From the NCBI GenBank assembly GCA_900473205.1, contig UCLB01000006.1, positions 62,001 through 126,000 of the forward strand: 64,000 bases of DNA, read 5' to 3'. The DNA is from Hyphomicrobiales bacterium. GTDB taxonomy: Bacteria; Pseudomonadota; Alphaproteobacteria; Rhizobiales; Rhizobiaceae. The stretch's first letter is position 1, and each line of letters starts with the position of its first letter. The notes below the pieces were generated by a model that was not told where the DNA came from, did not search any database, and saw only the letters and a program-made list of their open reading frames with translations. Shown one piece after another: positions 5,858 through 42,868 of the stretch. Position numbers and translations under genes: made by a program.

Positions 5858-6844
5858 TCAGAACGTGTCGGAAATACGAATGCCCGCAGGGCCGAGAATG
5901 ACCGCCACCAGAACCGGCAGGAAGAACAGGATCATCGGCACGGTGAGCTTTGGGGGTAGGGCGGAGGCTTTCTTTTCCGCTTCGTTCATGCGCTCGTCAC
6001 GGCCTTCCTGGGCCAGAACGCGCAGCGCCTGCGCCAAGGGCGTGCCGTAGCGTTCAGCCTGGATCAGCGCCTGCACTACGCTTTTTACGCCATCCAGCTG
6101 GGTGCGAATGCCGAGGTTCTCAAGGGCCGTTCGGCGGTCCTGAAGAAAGGAAAGTTCCGCCGTCGTCAGTACCATTTCCTCGGCCAGTTCAGGCGACTGG
6201 TCGGCCATTTCCTCGGCCACGCGGCGCATGGCCGCTTCCATCGATACGCCTGACTCCACGCAGATCAGCATCAGATCGAGCGCATCCGGCCATGCGCGCT
6301 TGATGGATTTTTGACGCTTGGACATCTGGTTGGAGATGAAAATATTGGGCGCATAGAAGCCGAGGTAACCGAAACCCAGCACGGCCATGAGACGCAGGCC
6401 AAACGGCCTTGTGATCAGATTTCCGCCGACGAAAACCCATAGGAAAGCAAGGATCAGAAATACGAAGGGCAGAATGAACCGGGCGGCCAGAAAGGTGTTA
6501 AGCGCGTTCTGGGATCGATAACCGGCAGCGCGCAGCTTGTTGACCGTATTGGCATCCACCAGCGCTTCGCGCAGATTGAAGCGCTCCACGATGCGCCGCG
6601 CCGACTTGTTGTTGTTGGCACGCAGCGACGCCTTGCCACCCTTTGCGGCCTCACTCATACGGTCGCGTTCGCGGCTTCTGATCTGGTCGCGCTCGGTGGA
6701 GACGGCCTTCATGCGCTTGTTGAGGTCGCCCTTTTCGAAATAGGGGATGGCCAGCGTATAGAAGGTGGCAAACACGGCCACAGACACCAGAATGGCGATG
6801 ATGAGGTGCGGGTTGGTGAGGCTAGCTGCAAGTTGTTCTGACAT
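5858..6844 (-). CDS. tadC: Tad pilus inner-membrane protein TadC
   Basis: A 328-aa inner-membrane platform protein with a T2SSF (GspF-like) domain in the C-terminal half (about 175-300: DALDLMLICVESG, LAEEMVLTTAELSFLQDR, ERYGTPLAQALRVLA). Hydrophobic segments occur near residues 15-32, 120-165 and 300-325. With TadB it forms the membrane base against which the CpaF ATPase works during Flp pilus polymerisation. It is the last gene of the minus-strand pilus run, 12 bp after tadB, and ends at the terminator at 5813-5841. It corresponds to CtpI in agrobacterial naming. Confidence 0.93.
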   Translation of the reverse strand: MSEQLAASLTNPHLIIAILVSVAVFATFYTLAIPYFEKGDLNKRMKAVSTERDQIRSRERDRMSEAAKGGKASLRANNNKSARRIVERFNLREALVDANTVNKLRAAGYRSQNALNTFLAARFILPFVFLILAFLWVFVGGNLITRPFGLRLMAVLGFGYLGFYAPNIFISNQMSKRQKSIKRAWPDALDLMLICVESGVSMEAAMRRVAEEMADQSPELAEEMVLTTAELSFLQDRRTALENLGIRTQLDGVKSVVQALIQAERYGTPLAQALRVLAQEGRDERMNEAEKKASALPPKLTVPMILFFLPVLVAVILGPAGIRISDTF

Positions 6845-6856
6845 AGTGCTACCGCC

Positions 6857-7861
6857 TCAAATATCAAAGTTGATCATCTGGCGCATGATGACGATGCCGA
6901 TGGACATCCAGATCGCCGATGCGCCCAGAATGAGATGTCCACGCGGATCGGTAAACAGCACCATGATGTAGTCTGGCGAGGTGAGGTAGACGAGCGTCGC
7001 CACGATGAAGGGCAGTGCGCCGATGATGACGGCAGACGCCTTGGCTTCCATGGAAAGTGCCGCGACCTTGGCCTTCATCTTGCGCCGCTCACGCAGCACC
7101 TTGGAAAGATTGGCGAGCGCTTCGGAAAGATTGCCGCCCGCCTGCGCCTGAATGGTGATGACGGTGCCGAAGAAGTTCACTTCCGGCAGTGGCATGGTCA
7201 GCATCATGCGGTTGATGCCTTCGGGAATGCTCATGCCCACTTGCTGCGCTTCCACGACGCGCTGGAACTCGGTCTTGACCGGCTCCTGACCATCGGACGC
7301 GATCAGGCGAACGGAATCGTTCAGCGGCAGACCGGATTTGATGGAGCGGTACATGACGTCGAGCGCGTTTGGAAACTCTTCCAGAAACTTGGTCTGCCGC
7401 CGCTTGACCAGAAAGCCAAGCACCCAGCGCGGCAGGCCGAGCGCGCCGACAATGCCCCCGCCCAGTGCCAGCAGCAGCGGTGCCGCATAGAGCAAGGCGA
7501 CGAGAAAGACGGAGAGCCCAAGCCCCGCGCTCATGAAATAGAATTTCTGGATGGAGATCGAAAGACCGGCCTGAGCGAGCCTGCTGCGCAGGCTCGTGTC
7601 CTTACGGTCTTTGGACTTCTCGTTCTGCTTCTTCTCCAAGTCCTTCAGCGTATCCTGAACGGATTTGCGACGCTTGCTCATTTCCTGAACGCGGTCGCGG
7701 GCAGCCTTGATCTTGGTGTGGTCGGTTTCCGCAGATTTGACGCGGTTTACGCGGCTTGCGGTCTTCTTCTCGACTTCGATTTGCGGGAACAGAAAGACGT
7801 AGGCCATCGCGCCTGCCGAAACGGCGACGAGGATCACAAGCAGCATCACCGTCATGTTCAT
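6857..7861 (-). CDS. tadB: Tad pilus inner-membrane protein TadB
   Basis: A 334-aa inner-membrane protein with an N-terminal TM (about 5-25), a charged coiled-coil-like stretch rich in Lys/Arg/Asp (about 35-95), a TM pair near 105-150, and a T2SSF domain (PNALDVMYRSIKSGLPLNDSV; AQAGGNLSEALANLSKVLRERR) before the final TMs. It is the partner of TadC in the pilus assembly platform. It lies 12 bp upstream of tadC and 59 bp downstream of cpaF, so they are probably co-transcribed. CtpH in agrobacterial naming. Confidence 0.93.
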   Translation of the reverse strand: MNMTVMLLVILVAVSAGAMAYVFLFPQIEVEKKTASRVNRVKSAETDHTKIKAARDRVQEMSKRRKSVQDTLKDLEKKQNEKSKDRKDTSLRSRLAQAGLSISIQKFYFMSAGLGLSVFLVALLYAAPLLLALGGGIVGALGLPRWVLGFLVKRRQTKFLEEFPNALDVMYRSIKSGLPLNDSVRLIASDGQEPVKTEFQRVVEAQQVGMSIPEGINRMMLTMPLPEVNFFGTVITIQAQAGGNLSEALANLSKVLRERRKMKAKVAALSMEAKASAVIIGALPFIVATLVYLTSPDYIMVLFTDPRGHLILGASAIWMSIGIVIMRQMINFDI

Positions 7862-37513: not shown

Positions 37514-38362
37514 ATGTTAGAAGCCGCGGCCCCAGATGAGAAAGCAAGAGGTTTCCACGTCCATCTCGAGGACGCGGATATCGCTGCTCTCATGCAGGTT
37601 CTGCTGACGAGCGATCGGCGCATCCAGCAACTCAATCTTTCCGTCGGCTCCGTCTGGATCAAGCGGCAGGGCACCGAGCAGGCGCCGTGGTGGGTCAAGC
37701 TTCAATCGCTTCTGGGCTCGGCGCTGCCTTATAAGTTTCTCAAGCCATCGCCCATTCTGACGCCCGCCGCCATGATGGCGCGCGAAAAGCGCAGAATGAT
37801 CGAATTTGGCGAAAAGGGCTTTCCGGTGCCTGACATCATCTACGCATCAGAAACCGCCATCGTGCTGGGCGATGTGGGGCCAACCGTGCAACGCATCCTC
37901 AAAAGCAAAATCCGTGCGGGCGATGTCGATCACGATGCGCTGCTTGTCGATTGCGCGGCAGCCATTGGCGATCTGCACGCGGCCGGTCTTTGCCACGGTC
38001 GCCCACATGTGCGCGATTTCTTTCTGCGCGATGGCCGCATCGGTTTCATGGATTTCGAGGAAGAGCCACAGGCCGTCATGCCCATCGAGACTGCACAGGC
38101 GCGCGACATCTGGCTTCTCTTTTTACCGCTCACCAATCTTGCCCAGCATGGCCGGCAAACGCTCGACGCCGCCTACCGCGCCTGGGCATCGCGGGCGCCA
38201 AAAGCGGCAATTGCCGAATTGCACCGGCTGGTGCGTGTTCTCGGCCGTTTTTTGCCGCTCGCCCGGTTGATTGGGCGCGTGCAGATGGGTAGTGATCTGC
38301 AACGCTTTATCGAGGCGACCGACTATCTGAAGAACGCTGTTGAAACCGAAGCCGCAGGCTAA
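37514..38362 (+). CDS. kinase-fold protein (LPS kinase-like)
   Basis: A 282-aa protein with a protein-kinase-like fold of the small LPS-kinase/InaA kind. Visible elements are an N lobe with VWIKRQGTEQAPWW, hinge AIVLGDVGPTV, the catalytic-loop region DLHAAGLCHGRPHVRDFFL and GRIGFMDFEEEP. Compared with HGDxxxxN of active kinases, the catalytic Asp is replaced by Arg (HGR) and the Asn by Asp, whereas the metal-binding Asp of DFE is kept, so catalytic activity is uncertain. It sits 21 bp before pheS on the same strand, possibly in one transcript. Confidence 0.7.
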   Translation: MLEAAAPDEKARGFHVHLEDADIAALMQVLLTSDRRIQQLNLSVGSVWIKRQGTEQAPWWVKLQSLLGSALPYKFLKPSPILTPAAMMAREKRRMIEFGEKGFPVPDIIYASETAIVLGDVGPTVQRILKSKIRAGDVDHDALLVDCAAAIGDLHAAGLCHGRPHVRDFFLRDGRIGFMDFEEEPQAVMPIETAQARDIWLLFLPLTNLAQHGRQTLDAAYRAWASRAPKAAIAELHRLVRVLGRFLPLARLIGRVQMGSDLQRFIEATDYLKNAVETEAAG

Positions 38363-38383
38363 AGCCCGGCGAGGCAGGAAAAT

Positions 38384-39466
38384 ATGACTGAACTGGATAC
38401 TTTGAAATCGCAATTGATGTCGGACATCGCCGCCACCGGGGATGAAGCGTCTATCGAAGCCGTGCGCGTGTCTGCGCTGGGCAAAAAGGGTTCGGTCTCC
38501 GAGCTTTTGAAAACGCTGGGCTCGATGACGCCGGAGGAGCGCCAAACGCGCGGTGCCGCGATCAACCAGCTCAAGAACGAGGTGACGGATCTCATCACCG
38601 CCCGCAAGGCGGAACTCAAGGATGCCGCCATCACCGCGCGTCTGAAGGCCGAGACACTCGATGTCAGCCTGCCTGTTCGCCAGTCGCCTGCAGAACGTGG
38701 CCGCATCCATCCGATCAGCCAGATCGTTGATGAGATCACCGCCATCTTCGCCGATATGGGTTTTTCCATTGCCGAAGGTCCGGATATCGAAACCGACTAC
38801 TACAACTTCACGGCCCTGAACTTCCCCGAGGGACATCCGGCCCGCGAAATGCATGACACCTTCTTCTTCCAGCCGGATGAGAAGGGTGAGCGCAAGGTGT
38901 TGCGCACGCACACCTCGCCCGTGCAGGTCCGCACCATGGAAACCCAGAAGCCGCCGATCCGCATCGTCATTCCCGGCAAGACCTATCGTCAGGATAGCGA
39001 CGCCACGCACTCGCCGATGTTCCATCAGGTCGAAGGCCTCGTCATCGACAAAAAGTCGAATGTCGGCAATCTGCGTTGGGTTCTGGAGGAATTCTGCAAG
39101 ACCTTCTTTGAGGTCGACAGCGTCGTCATGCGCTTCCGTCCGTCCTTTTTCCCTTTCACGGAACCGTCTTTCGAGGTGGATATCCAGTGCGACCGCTCCG
39201 GCCCGATCGTTAAGTTCGGCGAAGGCAAGGACTGGATGGAAATCCTCGGCTGCGGCATGGTGCATCCCAACGTGCTACGTGCCGGTGGTCTCGACCCGGA
39301 CGAATATCAGGGCTTTGCCTGGGGCATGGGTCTCGACCGCATCGCCATGCTGAAATACGGCATGCCCGACCTGCGCGACTTCTTCAACGCCGACGTCCGC
39401 TGGATGACCCACTACGGCTTCCGCCCGCTTGATATGCCGACGCTGTTTGGTGGTTTGAGCGTATGA
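38384..39466 (+). CDS. pheS: phenylalanyl-tRNA synthetase alpha subunit
   Basis: A 360-aa class II synthetase alpha chain. N-terminal coiled coil (about 1-90) then the catalytic core with motif 1 region [19 protein letters not shown], motif 2 [16 protein letters not shown] with [18 protein letters not shown], and motif 3 GLGMDRIAML-like [14 protein letters not shown]. It pairs with PheT to charge tRNA-Phe. The stop overlaps the ASCH pseudogene ATG by 4 bp (ATGA). Standard length. Confidence 0.98.
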
Positions 39467-39881
39467 GCGAGCTACCAGAGGCATTCCGCAATGCCGTGAC
39501 TTTCGCATTTGGTGACACGCCAAAACTGGCGGATGATCTGCTTGCGCTTGTGCTTTCTGGCAAAAGACGGCAACATGCGGTGCTTTGCGGGACTTTGGCT
39601 CGGAAGGCGACCCTATGCCCGTCGTCGGACGTCGTGATGTCGTTCTGGATGGTGCGGGTCGTCCAGCAGCGGTGATTGAAATGGTCGAAGTCGTCATCCG
39701 GCGGTTCGATGCTGTAGACGCGGAATTCGCTTTTGACGAAGGCGAGGATGACCAGACACTGGAAGCGTGGCGAGTTGGGCATGAGGCTTATTTCGCTCGT
39801 AATGGCGGATTTGCGCCAGACATGGAATTGGTTTGCGAGCGATTTCGCCTCGTAGAAATATTGAAGCGGGATATGGATTAA
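39463..39881 (+). pseudogene. ASCH-domain gene with frameshift
   Basis: An ASCH-type (PUA-like, RNA-binding fold) protein of about 139 aa split over two frames. The first 34 codons (39463-39564, [17 protein letters not shown] ... LALVLSGK) are in frame 1; the rest (from about 39564 to 39881: KTATCGALRDFGSEGDPMPVV ... RFDAVDAEFAFDEGE) is in another frame. Adding one A to the AAAA run at 39562-39565 restores the family motif SGKKTAT. So the gene lost one base in a homopolymer, or the sequence has an error. It is coupled to pheS by an ATGA overlap. As read, the product would be a scrambled 70-aa peptide. Confidence 0.85.
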
Positions 39882-39885
39882 GAAC

Positions 39886-40122
39886 GTGCCGACCTTACTG
39901 ATCTGGCATGGGTACAAATTTCGATTTTACTCCTCGGATGGAGCGGAGCCACCCCATGTCCATATCGTCAAGGACAAGCTGTCTGCCAAGGTGTGGCTGA
40001 TCAGCATGGAAATCGCCTATAATCACGGATATAATAACCGAGAAGTCGCAGAATTTCTGGCAAAGATAAACGAAAGCCGCGACGATTGGATGGAGAAGTG
40101 GAATGAGTTCTTTGGAATTTGA
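39886..40122 (+). CDS. DUF4160 domain protein
   Basis: A 78-aa protein starting at GTG, four bases after the ASCH pseudogene. Family pattern: LIWHGYKFRFYSSDGAEPPHVHIVKD (H-x-H near PPHVHI), SAKVWLI, YNHGYNNREVAEFLAKINESRDDWMEKWNEFFG. DUF4160 genes are usually paired with DUF2442 genes, as here, an arrangement that has been suggested to be toxin-antitoxin-like; biochemical function is not known to me. It overlaps the next gene by 20 bp. Located between pheS and pheT. Confidence 0.85.
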   Translation: MPTLLIWHGYKFRFYSSDGAEPPHVHIVKDKLSAKVWLISMEIAYNHGYNNREVAEFLAKINESRDDWMEKWNEFFGI

Positions 40123-40378
40123 AACCGAGGAAATGTCACCCGTTGCTGCCGAGTGCGACGACCACTTCGTCTATGTGGCTTTGGCAGATGGTCGGCAAAT
40201 CCGAGCCCCGTTGTGGTGGTACCCATTTCTGAACGATGCAACACCAGAACACCGCGCGAATGTCGAGATGCAGTTTTCGGGCGTGTGGTGGCCAGACATC
40301 GATGATGGCGTTTCCGTAAAGTCTATGCTTCTCGGATGGAAAGCTCCCGGCGCCAAAGCGCCGCAGAAAGCCGCATAA
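40103..40378 (+). CDS. DUF2442 domain protein
   Basis: A 91-aa protein of the DUF2442 family: VAAECDDHFVYVALADGRQIRAPLWWYPFLNDATPEHRANVEMQ and GVWWPDIDDGVSVKSMLLG, with the typical L-x-x-A-x-P-E-x-R and W-P-x-x-D-x-x-I/V-S patterns. It overlaps the DUF4160 gene by 20 bp, so they are coupled. Its partner role is inference. 66 bp later pheT begins, so this pair must be co-transcribed with, or read through into, pheT unless a promoter lies in between. Confidence 0.85.
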   Translation: MSSLEFETEEMSPVAAECDDHFVYVALADGRQIRAPLWWYPFLNDATPEHRANVEMQFSGVWWPDIDDGVSVKSMLLGWKAPGAKAPQKAA

Positions 40379-40444
40379 GCTGGAAGCCGAGCGGCTCAAG
40401 ATCGCCAGTCCAGAAGAGACAAATACCGTTAAGGACAGACACAT

Positions 40445-42868
40445 ATGAAATTCACACTCTCCTGGCTGAAAGAGCATCTGGAAACCGATGCGTCTCTCGA
40501 ACAGATTTGCGAACGCCTGACCGCCATCGGTCTCGAAGTCGAAGACGTGGATGACAAGGCGGCTTACAAGCCTTTCGTCATCGCCAAGGTGCTGAGCGCC
40601 GAGAAGCATCCGGAGGCCGACCGTCTCAAGGTGTTGAGCGTCGATGCGGGTGATGGCAAGCCGGTGCAGATCGTTTGCGGAGCGCCGAATGCGCGTGCTG
40701 GTCTCGTCGGTGCGCTGGCGCGTCCGGGGGACTACGTTCCGGGCATCGATGTGACGCTGGCCGTCGGCAAGATTCGCGGCGTGGAAAGCCACGGCATGAT
40801 GTGCTCCGAAAAGGAGCTCAATATGTCCGACAGCCATGATGGCATCATCGACCTGCCGCAGGATGCGCCGGTCGGCACGTCCTTTGCGACCTATGCCGGT
40901 CTCGACGATCCAATGATCGAAATCAACCTCACGCCCAATCGCCCGGATTGCACCTCGATTTACGGCATTGCCCGCGATCTGGCGGCCTCCGGTCTTGGCA
41001 CGCTGAAGTCAAAGCCAGCGCCGACCTTCAAGGTGGAAGGCGCGACCTCGGTTGAGGTAAGCCTCGATCTGGACGATTCCGCACTCTGCCCCGGTTTCGG
41101 CCTGCGCCTCGTGCGCGGCGTGAAGAACGGCCCCAGCCCCAAATGGATGCAGCAGCGCCTTCTCGCCATCGGCCTGCGCCCTATCAATGCGCTGGTGGAT
41201 ATCACCAACTACATGACCTTCGATCAGGGTCGCCCCATGCACGTCTTCGACGCGGCTAAGGTCAAGGGCAACCTCGTCGTTCGCCGCGCCAGGGACGGTG
41301 AAACAATCCTCGCGCTCGATCAGCGCGAATACAAGCTCGGCCCGACCAATGTCGTCATCGCCGATGATAACGGCATCGAATCCATCGGCGGCGTCATGGG
41401 TGGCGAACACTCCGGCTGCGATGAAAACACCGTGGACGTGCTGATCGAATCCGCACTGTGGGACCCGATCAACATCGCCAAGACAGGTCGTTCGCTCGGC
41501 ATTATCACCGATGCCCGTTATCGTTTCGAGCGTGGCGTCGATCCCGACTATATGGTGCCGGGTCTGGAGCGCACGACCGAACTGGTGCTGAATCTCTGCG
41601 GCGGCACGGCGGCAGAAGCAACGGTGGTCGGCTACAAGGGCTTCGAGCCCAAGTGGATCGATTTCCCGCTGTCTGAGGTCAAGCGCCTGACCGGTCTGGA
41701 TGTTTCGGCTGATGAAACGCTCGATATCCTCAAGGGTCTCGGTTTCGGCATCGAAGGTTCGGGCGAGCGCGTCAGCGTCTCCCCCCCATCCTGGCGTCCG
41801 GATGTAGATGGCAAGGCCGATCTGGTGGAAGAGGTCATGCGCATTCATGGCGTCGATAACATCAAGCCGGAGCCGCTGGAAAGCCTTGGCGCGGTCAATG
41901 GCCGTATCCTGACGACGCTGCAAATCCGCACCCGTACGGCCAAGCGTTCGCTTGCCAGCCGTGGCATGCTGGAAGCGGTGACATGGTCGTTCATCCCGGA
42001 AGCGCAGGCCAAGCTCTTCGGTGGTGGTTCACCAGCGTTGAAACTGGCAAACCCCATCGCTGCCGATATGTCGGACATGCGCCCGTCGCTGCTGCCCGGC
42101 CTGCTGGCGGCCGCCCAGCGCAATGCCGACAAGGGCCATGGCGATGTGGCGATTTTCGAAGTCTCGGGCACCTACGAAGGTGACACACCGGAGGCACAAC
42201 GTCGCGTGGCCGGTGGCGTTCGCCGTGGCACGGCATCGCTGGCTGGCTCCGGTCGCATGTGGTCCAACACGGCCAAGGGCGGCGGCAAGCCGGTGGATGT
42301 CTATGAGGCCAAGGCCGATGCTCTGGCCGTCATCGAAGCCTGCGGCCTGCCCATGAGCAACGTGCAGATCGAAGCGGGCGCACCCGGATGGTATCATCCG
42401 GGCCGTTCCGGCACGATCAAGATGGGGCCGAAGGTCATCCTGGGTTACTTCGGTGAATTCCACCCGAAGACACTCTCCGAACTGGATGTCTCCGGCGCTT
42501 ACGCAGGCTTTGAAATCTATCTCGACGCCATGCCCGAGCCGAAGAAGAAGGCGACCCGCACCAAGCCTGCGCTGGAGCTATCGGCGTTCCAGACCGTCAA
42601 GCGCGACTTCGCCTTTGTGGTGGACCGCTCCGTTGAAGCCGGCTCCATCATCAAGGCCGCAACCAGCGCCGACCGCAAACTCGTGACCGGCGTCAATGTC
42701 TTCGACGTCTTCGAAGGCGCATCCGTCGGCGAAAACAAGAAGTCCATCGCGATCGAAGTCCAGATCCAGCCGGTCGATAAGACCCTGACGGATGAAGACT
42801 TCGAAGCTTTGACGGCAAAGATCGTCGGTAATGTCGAGAAATCGACTGGTGGCGTTTTGCGGGCGTAG
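40445..42868 (+). CDS. pheT: phenylalanyl-tRNA synthetase beta subunit
   Basis: An 807-aa beta chain. N-terminal tRNA-binding (EMAP-like) domain (about 40-150: [18 protein letters not shown]), B3/B4 editing domain (about 210-390: [26 protein letters not shown]), B5 (about 400-475), a catalytic-like core (about 480-690) and a C-terminal ferredoxin-like anticodon-binding domain (about 710-807: [17 protein letters not shown]). It works as alpha2beta2 with PheS. Unusually, three small genes intervene between pheS and pheT here. Confidence 0.98.

Follow-up and report, generated by a model that had tools for sequence, protein, structure and literature searches.

Phenylalanyl-tRNA synthetase is encoded by pheS and pheT, and the question raised by the locus described here is why small accessory genes should lie between them. 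The locus belongs to a stretch of 64,000 nucleotides from a member of the Rhizobiaceae (contig UCLB01000006.1, positions 62,001–126,000 of the forward strand), hereafter called the window. A preliminary description had reported three small genes wedged between pheS and pheT, two of which, encoding DUF4160 and DUF2442 proteins, were taken for a toxin–antitoxin (TA)-like pair. It further suggested that embedding such a pair in an essential operon would tie its expression to aminoacylation. The common picture of a type II TA system is that of a self-contained unit that regulates itself. Here, we report a computational analysis of the window and of the corresponding junctions in related genomes. 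The original observation is right in outline, wrong on the ASCH gene that stands first among the three, and understated: what it described is one load of a variable site.

Gene content between pheS and pheT in the window

Both host genes are intact, lie on the plus strand and are 978 bp apart (Table 1). The DUF4160 and DUF2442 genes stand between them on the same strand with a 20-bp overlap, just as they had been described; the coordinates and the Pfam matches agree, with 56.1 bits for DUF4160 (cut-off 23) and 43.6 bits for DUF2442 (cut-off 23.9). The G+C content falls from 0.57–0.60 in pheS to 0.47–0.52 across this stretch. A scan of positions 38300–40600 found no terminator-like site on the plus strand and one on the minus strand (mean of 2.5 in shuffled sequences). 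The promoter scan returned a single promoter-like match, situated within the toxin gene, a number equal to that in shuffles. Upstream of the region, a Kdo/WaaP-like kinase gene (window 37514–38362, identified with Pfam) is found between rplT and pheS, and an rplT–pheS gap of 946–1051 bp occurs in 28 of 79 named loci.

Table 1. Features of the pheS–pheT region, in window positions.
Feature	Positions	Strand	Evidence and remarks
pheS, phenylalanyl-tRNA synthetase alpha subunit	38384–39466	+	Pfam PF01409 E 2.3e-100, PF02912 E 6.9e-22; upstream host gene
ASCH pseudogene (frameshifted)	39463–39881	+	frame a 39463–39675, frame b 39585–39881; ATGA overlap with pheS
DUF4160 gene, probable toxin	39886–40122	+	GTG start 3 nt past ASCH stop; PF13711 E 4.3e-15
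DUF2442 gene, probable antitoxin	40103–40378	+	PF10387 E 3.4e-11; 20-bp overlap with toxin gene
Pre-pheT stretch, 66 nt	40379–40444	+	AAGGACAG Shine–Dalgarno-like stretch
pheT, phenylalanyl-tRNA synthetase beta subunit	40445–42868	+	five Pfam domains, best PF03483 E 1.9e-67; downstream host gene

The count of three small genes holds for the intact DUF4160 and DUF2442 genes but not for the first, the ASCH gene, which is broken. This gene had been described as coupled to pheS by an ATGA overlap. Its start does overlap the pheS stop in this manner, but no single open frame follows: frame a ends after 70 amino acids and has no Pfam match, and the ASCH domain (PF04266, E 3.3e-15, profile positions 23–103) is present only in frame b. 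The one-base frameshift falls in the conserved GKKTATC motif, and the intact reading frame through GxKTATC that is expected of a functional ASCH protein is absent. A single frame through this motif is kept in the 15 family ASCH copies with which we compared it. Furthermore, the congener G247 (locus L113), which carries the same insert at 86% DNA identity, has an intact ASCH gene of 139 codons at the same place. The frameshift in the window may reflect a sequencing or assembly error, the assembly comprising 55 contigs. Programmed frameshifting is unlikely because the relatives hold one frame at this point with varied codons; no conserved slippery heptamer was seen in the 15 copies.

The pheS–pheT junction across the family

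The family sample was an even one of 297 Rhizobiaceae genomes, with pheS found in 292, and the best 149 pheS matches were examined together with the window. The 147 measurable regions amount to roughly half of the sample, the half whose pheS is closest to that of the window. Three loci of genus g105 (L210, L231 and L247), in which no pheT lies within 3.6 kb downstream of pheS, were left out; they have either a larger insertion or a separated pheT. In Rhizobiaceae, pheS and pheT cannot be taken to be neighbours as a rule. The distance between them is 10–138 bp in 67 of the 147 regions and 316–2098 bp in the other 80, with none at 150–300 bp, and of the 80 named Rhizobiaceae loci retrieved with PheS, 22 exceed 300 bp. 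The embedding of small genes in this essential operon, in turn, goes well beyond what had been claimed: 80 of 147 junctions are loaded, and a search of both strands placed each of the 153 classified cargo stretches on the strand of pheS. The recurrence of filled junctions across the family rules out the reading of the window as one odd genome.

Cargo was classified with profiles built here from Pfam-identified seeds, each gap being counted once per family. The 80 filled family gaps hold DUF2442 (38, by a profile that misses distant members), DUF4160 (35), GFA (32), ASCH (17), BrnA (9) and BrnT (8), as well as the rarer L034x family (5), Rv2179c-like exoribonuclease (2) and L038x family (1); two gaps contain unclassified frames only. 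DUF4160 and DUF2442 occur together in 35 gaps and BrnTA in eight, and a TA family is present in 47 and absent from 33. On the pheS tree, the distribution requires at least 32 changes of occupancy and at least 59 of cargo type, as counted on a quick tree with 43 of 146 inner branches open and for a gene that may recombine. The nearest relative of the window on this tree, G295, has an empty junction. The same site thus holds variable cargo and is empty in close relatives, as expected of an integration hotspot for mobile elements.

Core defence hotspots of Pseudomonas aeruginosa, in the part of that study used here, likewise hold variable cargo between conserved flanking genes (PMC10250203). The pheS|pheT junction differs from what is described there in its size (0.3–2.1 kb), in its single direction of transcription and in its place inside an essential operon. 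It also differs in that no mobility gene, such as an integrase, was recognized with Pfam in 20 cargo proteins of other genomes, of which 11 have no Pfam family at all; the remaining cargo proteins were classified only by the profiles made here. In the open-access literature, as searched by title or abstract, we found no paper on genes between pheS and pheT or on DUF4160 behind core genes.

Variable content of this kind could also arise without repeated insertion, if an ancestral pheS-…-pheT operon was already loaded and its descendants diversified mainly by loss and local reshuffling. Between the window and two congeners, the dS of the insert genes (0.5–1.1) is similar to that of pheS (0.57–0.70), so that at the genus level the load may indeed be old content with losses rather than a fresh insertion. 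Gene order is also partly regular: the TA pair usually adjoins pheS, and GFA is the last cargo gene or stands alone in 35 of the 36 distinct loci that hold it. In addition, among the best 26 loci of the same order outside the family, pheS and pheT are split by more than 300 bp in 11 (12 have at most 122 bp, and three have no pheT within reach). None of these 26 junctions contains DUF4160, however, and one holds an ASCH relative at 46%. The number of changes on the pheS tree and the presence of unrelated TA families, BrnTA and DUF4160/DUF2442, at the same point also count against old content, which we consider unlikely as the general explanation. The pheS|pheT junction of Rhizobiaceae is a site where short co-directional genes recur as cargo, with one such load in the window.

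DUF4160 genes behind pheS and other core genes

The association with pheS is strong for some cargo families. Of the 114 DUF4160 copies among the matches listed, taken from genomes whose pheS was also listed, 35 copies from 34 genomes are found no more than 3 kb downstream of pheS, every one on its strand. At random, 0.07 copies would be expected there, a comparison good to an order of magnitude only because related genomes are not independent. ASCH lies near pheS in 17 of 42 copies or, counting strong matches only (E<1e-14), in 17 of 19. BrnT is common, being present in 161 of the 297 family genomes, and at least four copies near pheS were picked out by eye among the matches listed; hence we claim no concentration of BrnT at pheS.

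Three control junctions are free of cargo in all measured loci: rpmI–rplT (36–41 bp in 79 of 79 measurable named loci), trpA–accD (at most 185 bp in 29 of 29) and rpsB–tsf (90–281 bp in 30 of 30). The glyQ–glyS pair proved unusable as a control; in the genome of the window, glyQ is followed by a LemA-like gene and then by another gene, as judged by reading. The trpB|trpA junction (L357–L386) had also been taken as a control, but it measures 421–1209 bp in 14 of 29 loci and proves to be another cargo site, with its own repertoire. The cargo phenomenon is therefore not unique to pheST. At trpB|trpA, ParE toxin-like proteins score above the PF05016 cut-off in L363 and L375, one partner has a sub-threshold RHH match, and CutA and ArsC are confirmed by Pfam. 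ParE-type toxin genes in L372 and L374, and further ParD/ParE-like pairs at this junction, were noted by eye.

The DUF4160 gene also recurs behind other core genes. From the best 150 family matches we kept 30 loci, comprising 13 with pheS, four that the profile left unscored and 13 others. Ten of these 13 non-pheS loci lie behind a same-strand core gene at a distance of 9 to about 166 nt; the remaining three are L090, L098 and L103. The upstream gene is rpoD, for the housekeeping sigma factor, in L082, L084, L087 and L102; nrdJ, for the B12-dependent ribonucleotide reductase, in L093, L094 and L110; argB in L089; hmgA in L091; and in L100 a pccB-like carboxyltransferase gene, then a pccA-like biotin carboxylase gene. 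These identities come from the C-termini and have NCBIfam support in eight of the ten loci, L084 and L094 being assigned by reading only. DUF2442 adjoins DUF4160 in all four rpoD-linked family loci (Pfam). The preliminary description had allowed that the small genes might prove to be ordinary single genes found broadly elsewhere; 79 of the 114 listed DUF4160 copies do lie elsewhere, but with ten of the 13 non-pheS loci examined standing behind a core gene, this objection holds only in part.

Spacing bears on how these genes may be expressed. In 29 of the 31 loci with DUF4160 as the leading cargo gene, 0–6 nt separate its start from the pheS stop, and the gap therefore has no space for a promoter. 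Among the 13 non-pheS loci, the nearest upstream frame stop is 7–14 nt from DUF4160 in six, and downstream of nrdJ and of two rpoD genes the distance is about 80–170 nt, which leaves room for one. A GTGGCCAC-like palindrome lies between pheS and the first gene in 14 of 15 BrnT-first loci, as against none of 37 distinct DUF4160-first loci. BrnA is reported to bind its own promoter, according to the portion of the literature consulted (PMC10714953). BrnTA, which like DUF4160/DUF2442 is a toxin-first type II TA system at the pheS|pheT site in other genomes, differs from it in its Pfam families and in this upstream palindrome, probably its own operator, which it would bring along to the site. By contrast, the DUF4160 cassette at pheS is most likely promoterless, relying on read-through transcription from pheS, and its dependence on pheS transcription is plausible, although a promoter may lie within the end of pheS or ASCH.

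Such an arrangement invites the stronger proposal that the cassette acts as a sensor for its operon, a fall in Phe-tRNA charging or in PheST synthesis shifting the ratio of toxin to antitoxin; for example, polarity past the toxin gene would starve both the antitoxin and pheT. The repeated strong association of DUF4160 and ASCH with pheS would fit this, as would the toxin-first order with its close spacing and the fact that some families at the site are RNA-active by name (BrnT ribonuclease, exoribonuclease-like). Nevertheless, GFA and other non-TA cargo use the same site, the same toxin family stands behind rpoD, nrdJ, argB, pccB and hmgA, and closely related genomes have nothing at the junction. 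In the rest of the class, where DUF4160 is rarer (18 of 239 other genomes), none of 21 copies lies by pheS and one lies by rpoD (L389). The unrelated cargo and the occurrence of the cassette behind other core genes argue against a phenylalanine-specific role, and for the same reasons no sensing of tRNA-Phe charging is needed to explain the locus. A link to aminoacylation is possible but unproven, and functional coupling of this kind seems to us quite improbable.

DUF4160/DUF2442 as a probable toxin–antitoxin cassette

The domain pair is known as a TA system elsewhere. In the sections of the Dickeya dadantii 3937 study drawn on here, the first gene of DhiTA is toxic and the second neutralizing, both in Dickeya and in E. 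coli, and dhiTA is cotranscribed from its own autoregulated promoter, which is repressed by the antitoxin and by the complex (PMC8198452). The window pair resembles DhiTA as described there, with a DUF4160 toxin first and a DUF2442 antitoxin second, overlapping and chromosomal, an order that matches type II systems of the DhiTA type. Unlike DhiTA with its own promoter, the window toxin lies directly behind another gene of a core operon. Moreover, it scores 20.7 bits (E 4.8e-4) against the NCBIfam DhiT model NF048015, for which the equivalog cut-off is 100 bits, and is therefore not filed as DhiT itself. For a DUF4160/DUF2442 pair on Thermus thermophilus plasmids, the available part of the report states that the first gene can be lost but the second cannot, and that the genes have no visible effect in E. 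coli (PMC12724237). The window pair shares the domains and the order of this persistence module but lies inside a housekeeping operon, whereas the Thermus module, on that account, serves plasmid stability. A further source, as far as it was consulted, gives the pair as predicted only (PMC12654330).

The pattern of gene loss at the junction is one-sided. The 100 distinct filled loci (80 from the family sample and 22 named, two of the latter having the same gap as a family region) include none with a toxin lacking its antitoxin, but the antitoxin occurs without its toxin in eight, DUF2442 in seven and BrnA in one. The seven include L015, with the domain fused to BrnA, and L024, with DUF2442 behind BrnTA; surplus DUF2442 is found in three further loci. 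In L163 the antitoxin is intact, and the toxin before it is a remnant that has suffered an internal deletion. Furthermore, dN/dS between the window and two congeners is 0.06–0.18 for the toxin and 0.04–0.09 for the antitoxin, and both genes are thus under purifying selection. The toxin of G247 deviates along a short stretch with compensating indels. Together with the shared domain pair, the antitoxin-only remnants and the purifying selection uphold the description of the pair as TA-like. We consider the TA reading of the window pair likely, and DUF4160 would then be expected to be toxic in its own host.

Several single loci show further rearrangements. L015 encodes a 201-residue protein (6352–6957, plus strand) in which BrnA is fused to a DUF2442 domain, a hybrid antitoxin behind BrnT. 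In L055, which shares its gap with L141, DUF4160 and DUF2442 form one fused frame of 164 residues (1062–1556). In L163 (oriented gap, 2015–2485), a cargo protein with a HEPN-domain match (E 4.4e-5) stands beside the decayed DUF4160 and the intact DUF2442 and is possibly the product of another toxin-type gene.

The AF2 model of DUF2442 (pLDDT 89.6) resembles two proteins of solved structure and unknown function, 2x8n (Z 9.8, r.m.s.d. 3.9 over 89 residues) and 3k8r (Z 9.5, r.m.s.d. 2.4 over 78), and more weakly the putative DNA-binding protein NE0471, 2auw (Z 5.7, r.m.s.d. 3.0 over 70). For DUF4160 (mean pLDDT 69.8, pTM 0.52), a relation to the RelE/BrnT fold was sought, but Foldseek returned nothing at E<=0.001 and VIA-align reached a Z of 5.3 at best, so its fold is not placed; no sequence relative was found in the PDB at E<=1. 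PADLOC, applied to eight proteins (three from the window, five from other gaps), returned weak exonuclease-type matches for one and a very weak CARF match for another.

That the inserted genes are inert passengers, relics without TA activity tolerated because they are short, co-directional and free of terminators, might be suggested by the broken ASCH gene of the window, by broken or fused pairs elsewhere (L163; L055/L141) and by the deviating G247 toxin, but it sits poorly with the low dN/dS of both genes, with the one-sided loss and with the evidence from two other genera, where TA activity of the domain pair is either demonstrated or strongly indicated, and we judge it improbable.

We therefore favour an account in which the window load consists of a decayed ASCH gene followed by a DUF4160 toxin/DUF2442 antitoxin cassette of the DhiTA kind. 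The cassette would be transcribed through from pheS, and, with the toxin start a few nucleotides past the preceding stop and the antitoxin start overlapping the end of the toxin gene, each gene may be translated by coupling. Its retention could be explained by addiction, as the antitoxin would not be lost before the toxin, and by the need for any deletion inside an essential operon to be exact. The junction would then serve as a docking site downstream of a core gene, of the sort that rpoD, nrdJ, argB, pccB and trpB appear to offer similar cassettes, rather than as a phenylalanine-specific sensor. We assign a probability of about 0.6 to this account as a whole, from cargo site and promoterless cassette to retention by addiction and exact deletion. 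The broader generalization that Rhizobiaceae maintain cargo bays behind the stops of pheS, trpB, rpoD, nrdJ, pccB and argB, with promoterless TA cassettes expressed only via the core operon, is offered as a tentative idea that may well prove too broad. The TA nature of the domain pair has experimental support elsewhere; here the pair is probably a TA cassette parked behind core genes, in the window inside pheST.

For annotation, these results are a warning that in Rhizobiaceae the pheST operon often holds more than two genes. They also provide concrete junctions, namely pheS|pheT, trpB|trpA and the position behind rpoD, at which small accessory genes enter or leave core operons among close relatives. 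If the broader idea of cargo bays is true, an addiction module wired to the synthesis of an essential enzyme, rather than to an autoregulated promoter, would represent a distinct regulatory class of type II TA systems. A promoterless form inside essential operons would also offer a natural test of the role of chromosomal TA systems, since regulation of the host gene would set toxin and antitoxin together.
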